Shown: piece by piece, positions 12,659 through 22,917 of the stretch
How the letters are laid out: each line of letters begins with the position of its first letter
How positions within the stretch are numbered: the stretch's first letter is position 1
Assembly (NCBI GenBank): GCA_031275645.1
Contig: JAISOL010000018.1
Coordinates: forward strand, 1 to 35,525
Source of the DNA: Deltaproteobacteria bacterium
GTDB lineage: Bacteria > Desulfobacterota > Desulfovibrionia > Desulfovibrionales > Desulfovibrionaceae
Reading direction: 5' to 3'
Length of the DNA: 35,525 nt
The notes under the pieces: generated by a model
The model's input: only the letters and a program-made list of their open reading frames with translations
What the model was told of the DNA's origin: nothing
Database searches by the model: none
Translations under genes and position numbers: made by a program

Positions 12659-12678
12659 AAAAATCCTTGAGCCATAGA

Positions 12679-12724
12679 GCAATTAACGCTTCAAACAATC
12701 GCTTGGCGGCGGGCAAAGCCCGCC
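12679..12724 (+). repeat. 46-bp intergenic repeat, copy A
   Basis: Begins GCAATTAACGCTT and ends in a perfect 7-bp hairpin, GGCGGGC/GCCCGCC with loop AAA (12708-12724). A second copy, with about five differences including two single-base gaps, lies in opposite orientation at 18428-18473. It is preceded by TAGAGC, a hexamer that recurs at gene ends in this window. It looks like a short REP- or MITE-type palindromic element. Confidence 0.7.
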
Positions 12725-12905
12725 TTGCGGCTATACGGCGGCAAGGGTTCGCCCGCGAATCCCCAGTCATATCCGGGGGTCGGGAAGCGCTGGCCAAGCG
12801 GGAACTCCTGGCCTTGCTGGAAGATCGCCGGGAAACGGCCTCTCCGGCCGGCCGGGAAAGAATTGCCCGGTACTTCGCCGGCCATGCGCAAAGTAGAAAA
12901 GCCCC

Positions 12906-12920
12906 CTCCCTGGCAGGGAG
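12906..12920. promoter_or_regulatory. Perfect palindrome CTCCCTG-G-CAGGGAG
   Basis: A 7-1-7 perfect inverted repeat centred about 44 bases upstream of the -24 GG of the candidate sigma-54 promoter. It could be a protein-binding site for an activator or a bending protein. No poly-T follows, so it is not a terminator. Confidence 0.35.
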
Positions 12921-12955
12921 CTTCCGCCTGATCCACAGCCTGGACCCCTTAAATT

Positions 12956-12971
12956 TGGCCCGGAATTTGCA
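12956..12971 (+). promoter_or_regulatory. Candidate sigma-54 (-24/-12) promoter for the motA operon
   Basis: TGGCCCGGAATTTGCA matches the sigma-54 consensus TGGCACG-N4-TTGCW at all but one position. The -24 GG (12957-12958) and -12 GC (12969-12970) are separated by exactly ten bases. Transcription would start near 12982, leaving a leader of about 200 bases before motA. A sigma-54 activator gene is in the same window at 21862-22917. Confidence 0.55.
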
Positions 12972-13181
12972 GAAGGTACTGGAAAAGCCGTCTTCCGGGA
13001 CAAAGAGGCCCGCAAGCGCCGTTCAGGCGGTGCTGGCGCAGGCGCGGCCATTTCCGCGCAGGGGCTCATGTGTCCGCCCCCCCACGCGGAAGACGCGGAG
13101 GCGAGCCGCCCCCGGTTCGCCCGCCTGCGTCAAATGCGTGACAGTTTCGGGCCGAGACGGCAGAACCGACACGGGAGAGTT

Positions 13182-13982
13182 ATGGATTTCGCAACCCTGA
13201 TAGGCCTGGCGGTATCCTTTGCGTTGCTGGCGGAGGCTCTCAGCCTTGGAGGCGACCTTTCCATCTTTGTGAACGGGCCGGCCGCCCTGATTGTGCTGGG
13301 GGGAACCTTCGGCGCCACCCTGACCAATTATCCCCCGGGAGTGCTGCTCCGCGCCTCTTTGAACATAGGCCGGAGCGTATTAAGACGCGCTCCTTCCACC
13401 TCCCTGGTAATCGGGCAGTTCATGAATTTTGCCTATCTGGCCCGGCGCGAGGGCGTTCTGACCTTGGAAAACCAAATCCGGCTGCTGGACGACGCTTATC
13501 TGTGCAAGGGGTTGCAGCTCACGGTGGACGGACTGGAGCCGGAATACATACGCTCCATCCTGGAAATGGAAATAGACAGCACCCACGCCCGGAACTCGAT
13601 CGGGGTGGATCTGCTGAACGTCATGGCCTCTTATGCCCCGGCTCTGGGCATGATAGGCACGGTCATCGGGCTGATGCAGATGCTGCGTACCCTGAGCGAC
13701 CCCTCCAGCATAGGCCCGGCCATGGCCGTGGCCCTGATCACCACTTTTTACGGGGCTATTCTGTCCAACCTTGTTTTTCTGCCTCTCTGCGGCAAACTCA
13801 AGCATATTTCGCAGGAGGAAATCCGCGTCATGGAAATGCGGCTGGAAGGCATAATCTGCCTGGCCAAAGGCGAAAACCCCAGAGTAATCCGCGATCTTCT
13901 GGAAGGCTTTCAGTCTCCGGAGGAGAGGCGGAAAAATCCGGACATATCCCCCTTTGACCTGGGGAAAAATGAAAACGGCTAA
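13182..13982 (+). CDS. motA: Flagellar motor stator protein MotA
   Basis: A 266-residue integral membrane stator subunit with four expected membrane spans and a large cytoplasmic loop. Conserved features are GGDLSIFVNGPAALIVLGGT, SYAPALGMIGTVIGLMQML, and ALITTFYGAILSNLVFLPL. It forms the ion-conducting torque unit with MotB. The start is the ATG at 13182 after GGGAGAG. The frame is open 38 codons further upstream, but that part is Arg/Pro-rich and unlike MotA. The 3' end overlaps the next gene by 14 bases. A sigma-54-type promoter lies about 210 bases upstream. Whether the motor uses H+ or Na+ cannot be read with confidence. Confidence 0.95.
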   Translation: MDFATLIGLAVSFALLAEALSLGGDLSIFVNGPAALIVLGGTFGATLTNYPPGVLLRASLNIGRSVLRRAPSTSLVIGQFMNFAYLARREGVLTLENQIRLLDDAYLCKGLQLTVDGLEPEYIRSILEMEIDSTHARNSIGVDLLNVMASYAPALGMIGTVIGLMQMLRTLSDPSSIGPAMAVALITTFYGAILSNLVFLPLCGKLKHISQEEIRVMEMRLEGIICLAKGENPRVIRDLLEGFQSPEERRKNPDISPFDLGKNENG

Positions 13983-14859
13983 AGGCGGATTCGCGGCCAT
14001 GCGCTCCGGAAGAAGCTTTAAATCCCCCGCCCGCCAACCCTGGCTGATCATTTTTTCGGACATGATGACCCTGATGCTGACCTTTTTTATCATTCTGGCT
14101 TCCATGTCCGTGGTCAACGACAAGAACAGCATACAGGCGGTGGAATCCGTGCGCACGGTTTTCGGCCGCGCGGCGCGGGAGCTGGCGCACAACCCCCTGG
14201 TCGGGGGAGGCGCGGAAAGAGCCGAATCCGGGACGGAACATTCCCGCCAGAGCAGGCCGGGCCGGGGAGATACCGCCCTTACCGGAAATTCGCGCCTTCT
14301 GTTCGACGATAACCCGGACATACACGTGCGCTACGCGGAAGACGAGATCGTCATAGCCATTCCGGAAAATCTGCTTTTCACGGAGGGGAGCGTGGAAATA
14401 CTCCCGGAGGGCAGGCAATCCCTGAATCGCCTGCTGCCCTATTTTCACGCCATGCTCCATCCGGCGAGCATCCGCGGGTACAGCGCCACAGGTCTGGGGG
14501 AGGGGCTGCGCTCGCAGATAAACAACGAGCGGGTGGTTGACCCTTCCTGGAGCCTCTCTCTGGAGCGCGCTCTGTCGGTATACAAATATTTCGGGGCCAT
14601 GGGCGTGAATACTTCCCTGCTGCTTCTGGAAGCCTACGGCAGCCACCGCCCGCGTTTTTCCAACGACACGCCGGAAGGGCGCTTCAAAAACCGGCGCATC
14701 GAGCTGATTCTGGACAAGCGCAATCCCGGACTGCTCAACAGGATGGATGCCCTGAGCCCGGAACCGGCGCGGGGGCAGGAATATTACTTCCGCGACTTCC
14801 GTTTCGACCTGGATCTGCCCGGAGAAGACAGGCCGGGCGCGCGGGAGGGAGGGGACTGA
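13969..14859 (+). CDS. motB: Flagellar motor protein MotB (first of two)
   Basis: A 296-residue stator B subunit. The single N-terminal membrane segment follows PWLIIFSDMMTLMLTFFIIL and carries the conserved ion-binding Asp of the SDMMT motif. The C-terminal half is an OmpA-like peptidoglycan-binding domain with LLFTEGSVEILPEG, SLSLERALSVYKYF, LEAYGSHRPR and FKNRRIELIL. The usual Asp of the GHTD-type turn is replaced (GYSATG). The ATG at 13969 lies inside the motA end after CTGGGG; an ATG at 13954 is also in frame. It overlaps the second MotB-like gene by one base. Confidence 0.92.
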   Translation: MKTAKGGFAAMRSGRSFKSPARQPWLIIFSDMMTLMLTFFIILASMSVVNDKNSIQAVESVRTVFGRAARELAHNPLVGGGAERAESGTEHSRQSRPGRGDTALTGNSRLLFDDNPDIHVRYAEDEIVIAIPENLLFTEGSVEILPEGRQSLNRLLPYFHAMLHPASIRGYSATGLGEGLRSQINNERVVDPSWSLSLERALSVYKYFGAMGVNTSLLLLEAYGSHRPRFSNDTPEGRFKNRRIELILDKRNPGLLNRMDALSPEPARGQEYYFRDFRFDLDLPGEDRPGAREGGD

Positions 14860-15596
14860 TGCGGGCGGCGAAAAGATCCTTCTCTTCCTTCAAACCGGCC
14901 TGGCTGATCACCTTCGCGGATCTGACCACTCTGCTGCTGGTTCTGTTTCTGATGATTTTCAGTATGTCCTCCCTGGACGATTCCGTTTTGCGCAGCATCA
15001 GCTCCGGCCTGGACAGGCGGAAGGGCCTGCCCGGCGAAGCCGCCCAGGTGCCCGAGCGCATCCGGCTGGCCGCCCAGTTGCTGCTGAAACAGGAATATAT
15101 GGAGGAAAAGGAAAGCCTGGTCAAAGAGCTGCTCTTCCCTTCGGAAAGCTTGCCCCCGGACTTTGATAAAGGTACACTGGAAGACAGCGTACGCATACTG
15201 CCCCATAAAGACGGCATCATGTTCAGCCTGGACAACGCGCTGCTCTTTGAGCCCGGCAGCAGCGGCCTCCGGCCGGGAGGGCGGGATCTGCTCCGGAATC
15301 TGGCCTCGCTTGTGTATATTCTGCCGGGCGAGGTACGGCTCGACGGGCATGAGGAAGCCGGGGGGAGCGAGCCCGGAGCGGGCGGCAAAGACCCCTACCA
15401 GGCTTCCGTCGCGCGCGTTCTGGCCGCCTTGGGCGTGTTCCTGAACCAGGGGCATGCTCCGGCGCGTTTCAGCGTCAGCGCCTACGGCGGGGACAAAGCT
15501 CCTGAACCTTTCGCGGCCCGGCCCGGCAGGATGCGCGCGCGGCTTGAAATTCTGTTCAAAACCGGAAATACTTCCGACAAGGGGCCGCGGCCATAG
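14859..15596 (+). CDS. Second MotB-like / OmpA-domain stator protein
   Basis: A 245-residue protein with the MotB plan: basic N-terminus, PAWLITFADLTTLLLVLFL with the conserved membrane Asp, then an OmpA-like region (IMFSLDNALLFEPGSSGL). The C-terminal peptidoglycan-binding motifs are strongly degraded: the NRRIEI-type motif is replaced by RMRARLEILF and the GHTD turn by GHEEAG. It starts within the stop of the first MotB (TGATG) and is therefore coupled. It may form a heterodimer with MotB on MotA or a second stator type. Tandem motB/ompA genes next to motA are also seen in Desulfovibrio. Confidence 0.85.
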   Translation: MRAAKRSFSSFKPAWLITFADLTTLLLVLFLMIFSMSSLDDSVLRSISSGLDRRKGLPGEAAQVPERIRLAAQLLLKQEYMEEKESLVKELLFPSESLPPDFDKGTLEDSVRILPHKDGIMFSLDNALLFEPGSSGLRPGGRDLLRNLASLVYILPGEVRLDGHEEAGGSEPGAGGKDPYQASVARVLAALGVFLNQGHAPARFSVSAYGGDKAPEPFAARPGRMRARLEILFKTGNTSDKGPRP

Positions 15597-15664: not shown

Positions 15665-16159
15665 ATGTCTCAGGACGACGAAGTGCCCAAAAAGAAAAAA
15701 GGCAAATTGAAATGGGTCCTGCTTGTGTTTATCCTGCTTTTGGGCGGCGGCGGCGGAGCGGCCTACTATTTCGGCTTTCTGGACAAATTCCTGAACCGGG
15801 GAGAGGGCACGGAAGACTCCCAGGGCAAGACGCAGCAGACCGGGGCGGCCGGCGTCGTTTCGCCCACGGCGACCCTGCCCACCCTTCTGGTCAATCTTTA
15901 CGATCCTCTGGGGCGGCGGTATATACAGCTGGATCTGGAGCTGGAACTGGTTTCGCCCGAAGTGGGCAAAGAAATACAGGCGCAGAACGCCCGCATCCGC
16001 GACAGCCTGATCCTGCTGCTTTCGAGCAAGACCTTTCCCGAACTCTCCTCTCAGGAAGGCAAGCATATTCTGCGCAACGAAATTCTGGATCGGCTGAATC
16101 AGGTGCTTGGAGGCCCCAAGGTTGTACGGGTGTTTTTCACAAATATGGTGATCCAGTGA
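15665..16159 (+). CDS. fliL: Flagellar basal-body-associated protein FliL
   Basis: A 164-residue single-pass membrane protein that surrounds stator units and aids torque. It has a Lys-rich cytoplasmic N-terminus (KKKKGKLKW), one membrane span with a Gly run (about 18-38), a short linker and the periplasmic FliL domain. That domain ends in RDSLILLLSSKTFPELSS, GKHILRNEILDRLNQVL and VVRVFFTNMVIQ, typical of the family. The ATG at 15665 follows ACGGAGAAAAC. The 68-base gap after the second motB-like gene holds TTGACATCCTC, which also occurs before putA, but no clear promoter. Confidence 0.93.
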   Translation: MSQDDEVPKKKKGKLKWVLLVFILLLGGGGGAAYYFGFLDKFLNRGEGTEDSQGKTQQTGAAGVVSPTATLPTLLVNLYDPLGRRYIQLDLELELVSPEVGKEIQAQNARIRDSLILLLSSKTFPELSSQEGKHILRNEILDRLNQVLGGPKVVRVFFTNMVIQ

Positions 16160-16187: not shown

Positions 16188-16715
16188 ATGAGCGATGCTG
16201 ACAACCAGGATGCTCTGGCCGCGGAATGGGCCGCGGCTCTGGGAGAACAGAAAGAATCCGAAAGCGGCGCGGATGACGGCAAAAAAAGCGAAGACCAGGA
16301 ATCCCTGGCCGCGGAATGGGCCGCGGCCATGGCCGGCGAGGAGCAGGCCAGCGCGAAAAAAAGCAAGGAGCAGTCCTTCCTGTCCAGCAAGGCCAAGGAT
16401 GCCTCCTTCAAGGATCTGACAGAGGAAGCCAAGGCTCCGCGGGTGGATTCCGACCGCCGGGATCTGGACTTCATTCTGGACATACCCCTAGACGTATCGG
16501 CCGAACTTGGGCGCACCAGCCTTCTGATCAACGAACTTTTGCAGTTGGGGCAGGGTTCGGTGGTGGAACTTGCCAAAATGGCCGGCGAACCCCTGGAAGT
16601 ATATGTGAACGGAAAGCTGGTAGCCAGGGGTGAAGCCGTGGTCATAAACGAGAAATTCGGCGTGCGCCTGACAGACATCATAAGCCCCATAGAACGGATA
16701 AAACAGTTGGGCTGA
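16188..16715 (+). CDS. fliN: Flagellar motor switch protein FliN with duplicated N-terminal motif
   Basis: A 175-residue C-ring protein. The SpoA domain at about 90-175 is complete: LDFILDIPLDVSAELGRT, INELLQLGQGSVVEL, GEPLEVYVNGKLVARGEAVV, KFGVRLTDIISPIERIKQL. The N-terminal region carries the conserved FliN motif (DLWAEAL in E. coli) twice, as LAAEWAAAL and LAAEWAAAM, 30 residues apart, so the protein is longer than usual. The start follows GGGGAGCTAGTT. No fliM is present here. fliO begins two bases after the stop. Confidence 0.94.
   Translation: MSDADNQDALAAEWAAALGEQKESESGADDGKKSEDQESLAAEWAAAMAGEEQASAKKSKEQSFLSSKAKDASFKDLTEEAKAPRVDSDRRDLDFILDIPLDVSAELGRTSLLINELLQLGQGSVVELAKMAGEPLEVYVNGKLVARGEAVVINEKFGVRLTDIISPIERIKQLG
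16215..16237 (+). repeat. 23-bp perfect repeat in fliN, copy 1
   Basis: Begins CTGGCCGCGGAATGGGCC and encodes LAAEWAA. An identical 23-bp copy lies at 16305-16327, exactly 90 bases (30 codons) downstream in frame. The flanking CCAGGA is also shared. Confidence 0.9.
16305..16327 (+). repeat. 23-bp perfect repeat in fliN, copy 2
   Basis: Second in-frame copy of the fliN motif repeat at 16215-16237. Perfect nucleotide identity suggests a recent duplication or gene conversion, or strong selection on both residue order and codons. Confidence 0.9.
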
Positions 16716-16717
16716 GC

Positions 16718-17122
16718 ATGGACTCTGGGATTATTCCGGAATACAATCTGGCCGAATACTTCCTCAGTCTGGGCGTGCTCTTCGTCCTTCTGGGGCTGTG
16801 CTGGTTCGGGGTGCGCCTGCTCCGGCGCAGGGGCTCCTGGCGTTTTCTCACCCCCGCCCGGGGGCTGCAAATCGAATCCCGCCTGAGCCTGGGGCCGAAA
16901 AAATTGCTGCTGGTGCTTAAATACCGGGACAAACGCCTGCTCCTGGGGGTAACGGAACAGCAGATCTCCCTGCTGGACAGCTCTCCCCTGGAAGAGTATC
17001 CCGAGGAGGAAGAACCGGGCGAAGACGCCCCGGCGGACGTCTCAACGGAAGGCAGGCGCGCCGTCGCGGCCGGCTTGCCCGACTTCAGGAATTTGTTGCA
17101 TGGACTCGGCAAAAAGAAATAG
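16718..17122 (+). CDS. fliO: Flagellar biosynthesis protein FliO
   Basis: A 134-residue single-span membrane protein that assists FliP assembly in the flagellar export apparatus. The membrane segment is at about 13-35 (YFLSLGVLFVLLGLCWFGV). It is followed by basic residues and the FliO domain with LQIESRLSLGPKKLLLVLKY and RLLLGVTEQQISLL. The C-terminus is acidic and then basic, and variable as is usual. It lies between fliN and fliP and overlaps fliP by 23 bases. Confidence 0.9.
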   Translation: MDSGIIPEYNLAEYFLSLGVLFVLLGLCWFGVRLLRRRGSWRFLTPARGLQIESRLSLGPKKLLLVLKYRDKRLLLGVTEQQISLLDSSPLEEYPEEEEPGEDAPADVSTEGRRAVAAGLPDFRNLLHGLGKKK

Positions 17123-17918
17123 AACGCTTCCCGAGGGCGGGCGCCTCCCGGGCTTTTCCGGGAGCCGCGCGGCGGCTCTCTTGTTCTTCCTTCTGCTCTG
17201 CCTGTGGCCGGACAGTCTCCGGGCGGCTTCCCCGGACATGGTCATGCCCAATCTGCAACTCAGCCTTTCCGGCGGCGAGATGGAGCCCCGCTCCGTCTCC
17301 ATGCTTCTGGAAATCCTCTTTCTGCTTACCGTACTCTCCCTGGCCCCGGCCATTGTGCTCACCGCCACCTGTTTTACGCGCATCATCATCGTCTTCCATT
17401 TTGTGCGTCAGGCCATAGGCGTGCAACAGCTCCCTCCCAACCAGGTGCTGGCGAGTCTGGCCATTTTCATGACCGTGGCCATCATGTTCCCGGTGGGAAA
17501 GCAGATCAACGACAACGCCCTGCAACCCTACCTGGACGAGCGCATTGATTTCCGACTGGCTCTGCAGCGGGCCGAGGCCCCCATGCGGGAATTTCTCTTC
17601 AAGCAGACCAGGGAAAAGGATCTCTCCATTTTTTATACCGTCACGGGCATGTCCCGTCCGCAGAACCGGGATGAAGTGCCCTTCTCCTCGCTGGTGGCCG
17701 CCTTTATCATAAGCGAGCTTAAAACCGGATTCATCATCGGCTTTTTAATTTATATTCCCTTTCTGATTCTGGACATGGTGGTTTCCAGCATACTCCTGGC
17801 CATGGGCATGATGATGCTGCCTCCCATGATGGTTTCCATGCCTTTCAAGCTGCTGCTTTTTGTGATGGTGGACGGCTGGAGCCTGCTGGTGGGCACCCTG
17901 GTCAACAGTTTTTCATGA
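17100..17918 (+). CDS. fliP: Flagellar type III export gate protein FliP
   Basis: A 272-residue core protein of the flagellar export gate. It has an N-terminal signal peptide-like segment (about 24-43, ending RAASP), then the membrane core. FliP signatures include LSLAPAIVLTATCFTRIIIV, RQAIGVQQLPPNQVLASLAI, AFIISELKTGFIIGFLIYIP and SSILLAMGMMMLPPMMVSMP. The ATG at 17100 lies inside the fliO end, after CAGGA. fliQ follows 12 bases later. Confidence 0.97.
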   Translation: MDSAKRNRTLPEGGRLPGFSGSRAAALLFFLLLCLWPDSLRAASPDMVMPNLQLSLSGGEMEPRSVSMLLEILFLLTVLSLAPAIVLTATCFTRIIIVFHFVRQAIGVQQLPPNQVLASLAIFMTVAIMFPVGKQINDNALQPYLDERIDFRLALQRAEAPMREFLFKQTREKDLSIFYTVTGMSRPQNRDEVPFSSLVAAFIISELKTGFIIGFLIYIPFLILDMVVSSILLAMGMMMLPPMMVSMPFKLLLFVMVDGWSLLVGTLVNSFS

Positions 17919-17930
17919 GGGAATGACGGC

Positions 17931-18200
17931 ATGACTCCGGAATTCATCATCGGCTTCGCGCGTCAGAGCATAGAACTGACCCTCATGATCTCCCTGCCCA
18001 TGCTGGGGGTGGGGCTGGCCGTGGGACTGGTCGTAAGCATTTTTCAGGCCGCCACCCAGATTCAGGAGATGACCTTGAGCTTCATCCCCAAGATTCTCTC
18101 CATTTTTTTGGTGCTTCTCCTCACCTTTCCCTGGATCATGGATAAAATCATCACGTATACGCGGGATTTGTTTTTGAACATTCCCAACTACATCCGATAG
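17931..18200 (+). CDS. fliQ: Flagellar export gate protein FliQ
   Basis: An 89-residue protein with two hydrophobic hairpin helices, the usual FliQ size. Motifs are ARQSIELTLMISLPMLGVGL, VVSIFQAATQIQEMTLSF and IPKILSIFLVLLL. It assembles with FliP and FliR in the export gate. The start follows GAGGGAATGACGGC. It is the last gene of the operon. fliR, flhB and flhA are not in the window. Its TAG stop is the first base triplet of a hairpin-rich gap. Confidence 0.97.
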   Translation: MTPEFIIGFARQSIELTLMISLPMLGVGLAVGLVVSIFQAATQIQEMTLSFIPKILSIFLVLLLTFPWIMDKIITYTRDLFLNIPNYIR

Positions 18201-21861: not shown

Positions 21862-22917
21862 TTATTCCAGCTTTCTTTTTCTGAGTTTTTCAATCAGGGT
21901 GGTGCGTTTGATGCCGAGCAGCTCCGCCGCCTGATTCTTTACCCCGGCCGCCGAGGCCAGGGCTTCCAGCAACAGGCGTTCCTCCAGGGTGTCCAGAAAA
22001 TCTTTCAGATTCAGATTGTAGCGGGCAAGATCCGCCAGCGTGGGCCAGACAAAATCCGCCTTACCGGCGGGGAGCAGAGGCTGGTCCGAGGCGGCGAGCT
22101 GGGCGGCGGCCGTATCCGGAACCGGAGGCAGCGCCAGCACGTCTCCGGCCTGTTCCAATATCTTTCGCGGCAGGTCCTTGAGGCTCACCAAATCCGTTTC
22201 ACACAGAATGGCGAGTCTTTCCATTATGTTTTCCAATTCCCGCACATTGCCGGGCCAGGTGTAATGTTCCAGAGCCAGACGGGCCTCCGGGGAAAAAGAG
22301 GGCTTTTTCCGCCCGTTTTTCCGGCTGAAGGCGCTGAGGAAATGATCCGCCAACAGAGCCACGTCGCCGCCTCTGTCCCGCAAGGGAGGCAGATGAATGG
22401 GAATGACGTTGAGACGGTAAAAGAGATCCTCCCTGAAGCGCCCGGCCTCCACTTCCTGCTCCAGATCGCGGTTGGTGGCCGCCACAATGCGCACATCCAC
22501 CTTTTTACACCCGTTTCCGCCAACCCGCTCAATTTCTTTTTCCTGGATCACCCTCAGAATTTTTACCTGCAGCCCCGTATCCATTTCACCGATTTCGTCC
22601 AGAAAAATGGTTCCGCTGTCCGCCATTTCAAAGCGCCCCTGCCTGGTGCGCAGGGCATGGGTGAAAGCTCCCTTCTCATGGCCGAAAAGCTCGGATTCGA
22701 GCAGATCCTTGGGAATGGCTCCGCAATTTATGGGGACAAAGGGTTTGTCTCTGCGGGAGCTTTGCTGGTGCAGGGCGCGCACCAGCAGTTCCTTGCCGGT
22801 GCCGGATTCTCCGGTGACAAGCACCGTGCTGTCCGTGGGAGCCACTTTTCCCAGAAGGCGAAACACTTCCCGCAACGAAGCGCTTTGCCCGATGATGCCG
22901 CTTGGGCTTGTGTCCAT
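21862..22917 (-). CDS. Sigma-54-dependent transcriptional activator lacking a receiver domain
   Basis: A 351-residue enhancer-binding protein. The AAA+ domain starts almost at the N-terminus: Walker A GESGTGKE (36-43), sigma-54 contact loop GAFTHA (83-88, the usual form being GAFTGA), Walker B TIFLDEIGEM (about 103-112), and the arginine-finger region FREDLFYRLNVIPIHLPPLR. The C-terminus is a Fis-type helix-turn-helix (NQAAELLGIKRTTLIEKLRK) like that of flagellar activators of the FleQ/FlrC/FlbD group. Without a receiver domain it may be constitutively active or controlled by a partner, as with PspF. The ATG at 22917 follows AAAGGAGCAATCCGG. The gene lies 27 bases after tsaB. A good sigma-54 promoter precedes motA in the same window. 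Confidence 0.92.
   Translation of the reverse strand: MDTSPSGIIGQSASLREVFRLLGKVAPTDSTVLVTGESGTGKELLVRALHQQSSRRDKPFVPINCGAIPKDLLESELFGHEKGAFTHALRTRQGRFEMADSGTIFLDEIGEMDTGLQVKILRVIQEKEIERVGGNGCKKVDVRIVAATNRDLEQEVEAGRFREDLFYRLNVIPIHLPPLRDRGGDVALLADHFLSAFSRKNGRKKPSFSPEARLALEHYTWPGNVRELENIMERLAILCETDLVSLKDLPRKILEQAGDVLALPPVPDTAAAQLAASDQPLLPAGKADFVWPTLADLARYNLNLKDFLDTLEERLLLEALASAAGVKNQAAELLGIKRTTLIEKLRKRKLE

Follow-up and report, generated by a model that had tools for sequence, protein, structure and literature searches.

The motA-motB1-motB2 genes of the window (the whole stretch of DNA that was analysed, 35,525 nucleotides long) probably encode a single heteromeric flagellar stator, in which five MotA subunits would surround one MotB1 and one MotB2. 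We give this reading, which is drawn from sequence comparison, a probability of about 0.57. The operon form is already known from Aquifex; what is new is the pairing, in relatives of the window's organism, of a MotB1 (B1) without the transmembrane (TM) Asp with a MotB2 (B2) that bears it.

One MotA and two MotB-like proteins in a flagellar operon

The window carries one motA followed by two motB-like genes, as in the original prediction, whose range of 13969-15596 covers both motB genes, with motA just upstream (Table 1). The motA and motB1 genes overlap by 14 bases, and the stop codon of motB1 and the start codon of motB2 share the sequence TGATG; these overlaps suggest coupled translation. 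For motB1, an alternative in-frame TTG start is possible at 13954.

Table 1. Features of the stator locus and neighbouring open reading frames (ORFs), in window positions
Feature	Position	Strand	Match or remark
ORF preceding motA	12667-13200		no Pfam match; weak NCBIfam match only
motA, 266 aa	13182..13982	+	PF01618 (MotA_ExbB), 105.1 bits (cut-off 22.9)
motB1, 296 aa from ATG	13969..14859	+	PF13677, 51.2 bits; PF00691, 39.4 bits
motB1 TM Asp31 codon (SDMMT)	14059..14061	+	
motB1 GYSA at the GHTD position	14476..14487	+	
motB1 NRR	14689..14697	+	intact
motB1 C-terminal RDFRF	14791..14805	+	extension beyond the OmpA domain; none in MotB2
motB2, 245 aa	14859..15596	+	PF13677, 46.0 bits; PF00691, 20.2 bits
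motB2 TM Asp21 codon (ADLTT)	14919..14921	+	
motB2 GHEE at the GHTD position	15345..15356	+	
motB2 RMRAR	15528..15542	+	decayed NRR
fliL, downstream of motB2	15665..16159	+	PF03748, 81 bits
fliN	16188..16715	+	TIGR02480, 103.8 bits
fliO	16718..17122	+	PF04347, 47.8 bits
fliP	17100..17918	+	named by eye from translation
fliQ	17931..18200	+	named by eye
Proline-rich, TPR-like ORF, 1110 aa	18506-21838	-	adjoins the flagellar genes; named by eye
Sigma-54 activator-like ORF	21862-22917	-	follows the 1110-aa TPR-like ORF; named by eye

Judged against Pfam cut-offs of 24 bits for MotB_plug and 27.2 bits for OmpA, the MotB_plug domain was above cut-off in both MotB1 and MotB2, and the OmpA domain was above it in MotB1 and below it in MotB2. 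In a Foldseek search, the models of the window Bs matched the periplasmic domains of MotS and MotB (best E 1.8e-8), and the periplasmic fold of 3KHN, the MotB-like DVU_2228 of Desulfovibrio vulgaris, known here from its title and a sequence match, likewise matched both. The structure models, with pLDDT values of 72.7 for MotB2 and 58.5 (mean) for MotB1, support an OmpA-like fold only and decide nothing on dimers.

The TM sequences of MotB1 and MotB2 differ, and each contains the membrane Asp that had been predicted for it, D31 in MotB1 and D21 in MotB2. The complete set of peptidoglycan (PG)-binding residues, which we take to be the Asp of GHTD, the Arg of LSxxRA and NRR, is absent from both proteins. 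MotB1 keeps NRR and LSxxRA and has GYSA in place of GHTD, so that the usual Asp of this turn is missing, as had been noted. MotB2 has GHEE and ends in GRMR-ARLE, with a gap in place of the NRR Asn and Ala in place of the first Arg; the loss of the NRR-type motif and the degraded PG-binding site originally reported for the second MotB were thus both found.

No further MotB_plug protein besides MotB1 and MotB2 was found in the window's genome, a metagenome-assembled genome of 1.81 Mb that is 89% complete, and its two further MotA_ExbB proteins have neighbours that, by eye, look TonB-like and TolA-like, which leaves motA-motB1-motB2 as the only recognisable flagellar stator of this genome. A plasmid search gave no match, nor did a first scan of genome contigs with the window MotB2. 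For comparison, three or four stator units can occur in Desulfovibrio species, according to the available text of a review (PMC9039648).

Conservation of the gene trio in Desulfovibrionales

A search of 150 Desulfovibrionales genomes, the window's included, gave some match in 119. We counted a MotB2 match as strong at E 7.7e-19 or better, the next match (7.2e-18) being another MotB. The motA-motB1-motB2 trio was complete and in order in 81 of the 84 other genomes with a strong match, and the regions of the remaining three (G027, G022, and G051) were cut or fragmentary. Within the window's genus, six of seven genomes, including the window's, have the trio. Within this clade the arrangement is nothing unusual, a point that the original prediction had not made. 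In trees of the order, the sampled B2 proteins formed one clade (44/44, and 27/27 in a second tree), as did the sampled B1 proteins (27/27); one row of the tree with 44 B2 (L022_oth) was a wrong ORF whose very long branch split B1, and it was omitted from later trees.

Two observations concern other members of the same family. Genomes of genera g8 and g19 have a second motA-motB-motB tandem (L214-L228), with Asp in both Bs at every TM that was read (none was for one second B), and we kept this tandem apart as another pair. The large genus g3 seems to be without this stator, having at most one MotB_plug match per genome and weak MotA matches only.

Across the order, the TM Asp was present in 79 of 88 B1 and absent in 9, and it was present in all 89 B2 with letters at that position. 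The Asp of GHTD was found in 0/89 B1 and 82/90 B2, and NRR in 85/89 B1 and 80/88 B2. As all 89 B1 lack the GHTD Asp, its loss in the window's MotB1 is not peculiar to the window; the original prediction had not recognised it as order-wide. B1 of the order has a conserved C-terminal extension ending in RDFxF. By its residues, B2 is a textbook MotB in most of the order. The idea that B2 of the whole order had lost the Asn of NRR was rejected, since a later comparison showed simply a gap in the window row.

Five of the eight B2 without NRR in the order come from the window's genus, and in three genomes of other genera (G093, G070, and G009) B2 lacks both the GHTD Asp and the NRR Asn, as separate losses. 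Within the window's genus, the two PG motifs of B2 form a gradient from GHSD/NRR (G155) through GHSD/GRR (G151), GHSD/DRR (G152), GHED/DAR (G154), and GHEE/QGR (G150) to GHEE/-AR in the window, and all six members keep the TM Asp. Such graded loss would suit a decaying duplicate with no distinct role in a small genome; we regard this explanation of the window's MotB2 as very improbable, since the ORF is open, the gene still lies in the operon, the TM Asp persists through the whole gradient, and Asp loss was not seen in any B2 read. A poorly anchored stator, as originally proposed, may exist in the window's organism and its closest relatives in the genus; most B2 of the order have the full site.

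B1 proteins without the transmembrane Asp within the order

The nine B1 without the TM Asp belong to all eight genomes of genus g26, two contigs of which are from Desulfonatronum, and to G032. One or both channel Thr are also lost from these proteins; the g26 B1 TM reads GWLLTFTGLMILIMAFF, and other B1s resemble PWLITFSDLMTLMLTFF. A B1 tree of the order, built without the TM and with three B1 rows (L152 among them) omitted from the count of Asp states, placed the changes of Asp state on two separate branches, which are most simply read as two losses. Median pairwise dN/dS in g26 (28 pairs each) was 0.121 for B1, 0.108 for B2, and 0.075 for MotA; these values are rough, as dS is high (0.84-1.44, with a B1 median of 1.44), and they suggest that the g26 B1 is under purifying selection.

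Asp-less B1 in tandems outside the order

Searches of the phylum gave more tandems; the queries were a g26 B1 (297 genomes) and a profile built from Asp-less B1s (395 genomes, and also the 21 genomes of one other order). Because B1-based queries favour Asp-less B1s, we then ranked 247 genomes of the phylum with MotA as the sole criterion and examined all of the best 60 outside the order (E 1.9e-57 or better), taking one region from each. Of these regions, 40 were newly taken for the MotA ranking (four of them, G242, G241, G353, and G331, had also come up earlier), 19 were shared with the B1 searches, and G358 made up the number. TMs were read with a score that ignores the Asp and Thr columns; four low-scoring TM reads (families f42 and f47) were read by eye, and as f47 was later added as a seed, its later TM score is partly circular.

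In this MotA-ranked sample, motA-B1-B2 occurred in 35 of the 60 regions. B1 was without Asp in 34 of the 35 (in G358, for example, B1 has Ala and B2 has Asp), and B2 had Asp in all 35; G260 was the only tandem whose B1 kept it. The remaining regions comprised 14 with one B, each with the Asp, 8 in which motA adjoins fliL with no B, and 3 truncated by the contig end, in which B1 lacks Asp. In an incomplete list of 19 lower-ranked regions, all had one B, with Asp in 18 and an unreadable TM in L391. All samples outside the order together gave at least 52 motA-B1-B2 tandems from at least 17 families, at one region per genome, and among the matches listed there B1 was Asp-less in 51 of the 52 and B2 had Asp in all 52. 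Each of five seemingly lone Asp-less Bs reaches a contig end or stops no more than about 310 bases short of it. The original suggestion that both Bs could conduct ions is kept for the window, and outside the order it describes the exception, 1 of 35 MotA-ranked tandems.

These counts bear on the alternative that two homodimeric stators, A5(B1)2 and A5(B2)2, share one MotA and differ in anchoring or load response. The TM Asp of both window Bs would allow it, as would the second tandem of g8 and g19, and each A. aeolicus B contributes a TM part that functions when joined to the periplasmic part of E. coli MotB, as given in the available text (PMC4525482). We nevertheless consider it unlikely: it fails for the Asp-less B1 of the order and of nearly all listed tandems elsewhere, although B1 stays linked to B2 in them.

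Inside the TM of 50 Asp-less B1s from tandems outside the order, no acidic substitute for the Asp was found; two of the 50 have a Glu five residues ahead of the Asp place. At the two positions of the channel Thr pair, Thr occurred in 4 and 18 of 51 B1, versus 43 and 47 of 51 B2, and the TM FF was present in 49 of 51 B1, which are full-length proteins. The PG residues were similarly frequent in the two proteins, with the GHTD Asp in 46/51 B1 and 45/51 B2, the LSxxRA Arg in 49/51 and 50/51, and the NRR Asn in 44/51 and 48/51. A C-terminal extension motif was found in 30 of 51 B1 versus 1 of 51 B2, and RDFxF-like endings recur among the Asp-less B1s of several further families. In the adjoining MotA, Pro153, Thr160, Thr188, and Pro201 were present in 50 of 50 Asp-less systems. 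The kept residues are those of a functional MotA and of a B that still occupies a MotB-like place and could hold the wall. The RDFxF extension of MotB1 may bind another motor part.

The same pattern admits another explanation, in which A5(B2)2 would be the motor and B1 an accessory outside the MotA ring, anchored in both membrane and wall and acting, for instance, as scaffold, load sensor, or inhibitor. Such a role would fit the tandems outside the order, whose B1 has mostly lost the ion residues and kept the PG residues and often bears the C-terminal extension. B1 nevertheless retains the MotB TM register, shown by the FF, and the Asp kept by most B1 of the order is hard to explain outside the ring. 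We therefore judge an accessory role quite improbable.

A phylum tree, from which L299 (B1 start cut off) was left out, splits the B1s, with at least six label changes forced by starred branches. In the tally of tandems, two f43 regions in which no pair could be read were classed as 'other'. That the B1s are not united may reflect several origins, exchange between copies, or a tree that is poor at this depth. In G260, the B1 (L340) has a B2-like, Asp-bearing TM and is nested among Asp-less B1s; an exchange of the TM between its two copies is possible. In families f76, f43, f39, and f96, two motB genes stand together, and the stretch read shows no motA next to them; both Bs have the Asp (separate motB-pair loci L259, L261, L267, L270, L271, L273, L275, L276, L336-L338, L343-L345, L347, and L365). 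The first three of these families have a motA elsewhere, immediately preceding fliL, at a distance of about 16-17 kb in f76.

Comparison with known stators

The window proteins share with canonical MotA5MotB2 and PomA5PomB2 stators the MotA family, MotB_plug, an OmpA-like PG domain, and a flagellar operon, and differ from them in having two diverged B genes, one of whose products is often without Asp. One A-type and two B-type subunits also make up the Xanthomonas ExbB-ExbD1-ExbD2 system, which is a TonB energiser and not flagellar.

The same gene order, one motA and then two motB, is found in the motA/motB1/motB2 operon of A. aeolicus, where, in the available text, the two Bs share 97% identity over their TM and N-terminal parts, and either B works with MotA once its periplasmic part is that of E. 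coli MotB (PMC4525482). Unlike these near-identical TMs, those of the window Bs differ, and the B1 Asp is lost in many relatives. The word 'heterodimer' is absent from the main text of that paper, in the version available.

The nearest motor with two Bs is AglR-AglQ-AglS of Myxococcus xanthus, which likewise has a single MotA homologue and two distinct homologues of MotB, and for which heterodimer formation between AglQ and AglS is stated to be unknown in the available text of two papers (PMC9120999, PMC9389320). That motor drives gliding and both of its Bs are predicted to have the Asp, whereas the window pair lies in an operon with fliL, fliN, and fliO; a gliding gene context was not found at the window.

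The TM Asp has been called universally conserved, and a MotB set was filtered on it, in the available text of one survey (PMC7787011). In the main text available of a 2025 MotAB survey in mBio (PMC12505986), 'aspart', 'Desulfo', and 'heterodimer' are absent. Our literature search, which had most subscription papers outside its reach, found no account of Asp-less tandem B subunits.

A putative heteromeric stator and its meaning

To our knowledge, an Asp-less B1 homodimer would conduct by no known mechanism. Since such a homodimer would be non-conducting, every B2 read has the Asp, and the pair is kept behind one motA in these tandems, a B1-B2 heterodimer is the simplest reading. In this stator, B1 and B2 would dimerise within the MotA pentamer, B2 would be the obligate ion carrier, and B1 would form the second half of the axle, with periplasmic contacts of its own through the C-terminal RDFxF extension. 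Both window Bs could still carry ions, and the holding of the cell wall may have moved from MotB2, with its decayed site, towards MotB1, which keeps NRR and LSxxRA. Of the two arrangements originally proposed, the A5B1B1' heterodimer is the better supported, given that the pair is conserved beyond the order with an Asp-less B1 retained, the complex itself being inferred.

Several points stand against a heteromer. Both window Bs have the TM Asp, and the motB pair of f76, f43, and f39, with Asp in both, is not next to the motA that precedes fliL. The split of the B1s in the phylum tree also counts here, since the pairs may have several origins. The function of either Aquifex B with MotA in a chimera makes homodimers possible in a two-B system, according to the available text (PMC4525482). 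Furthermore, the 5:2 turnstile model, as presented in the text available of PMC9389320, uses two binding sites, and a stator with one site may therefore not turn.

The pattern in many relatives suggests motors in which the two halves of the axle are unequal and just one would conduct. We propose tentatively, at a little short of even odds, that much of the phylum has an obligate MotA5-MotB1-MotB2 in which only MotB2 bears the Asp, a natural one-site 5:2 rotary motor, and that Desulfovibrionales keep or have regained the second Asp. As proposed, this motor is one carried by many relatives and not by the window. Asp-less B1 subunits would escape MotB surveys in which the Asp serves as a filter, as in the available text of PMC7787011. 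If the one-site motor is real, it would pass about 5 ions per MotA turn in 72-degree steps, compared with 10 ions in 36-degree steps.
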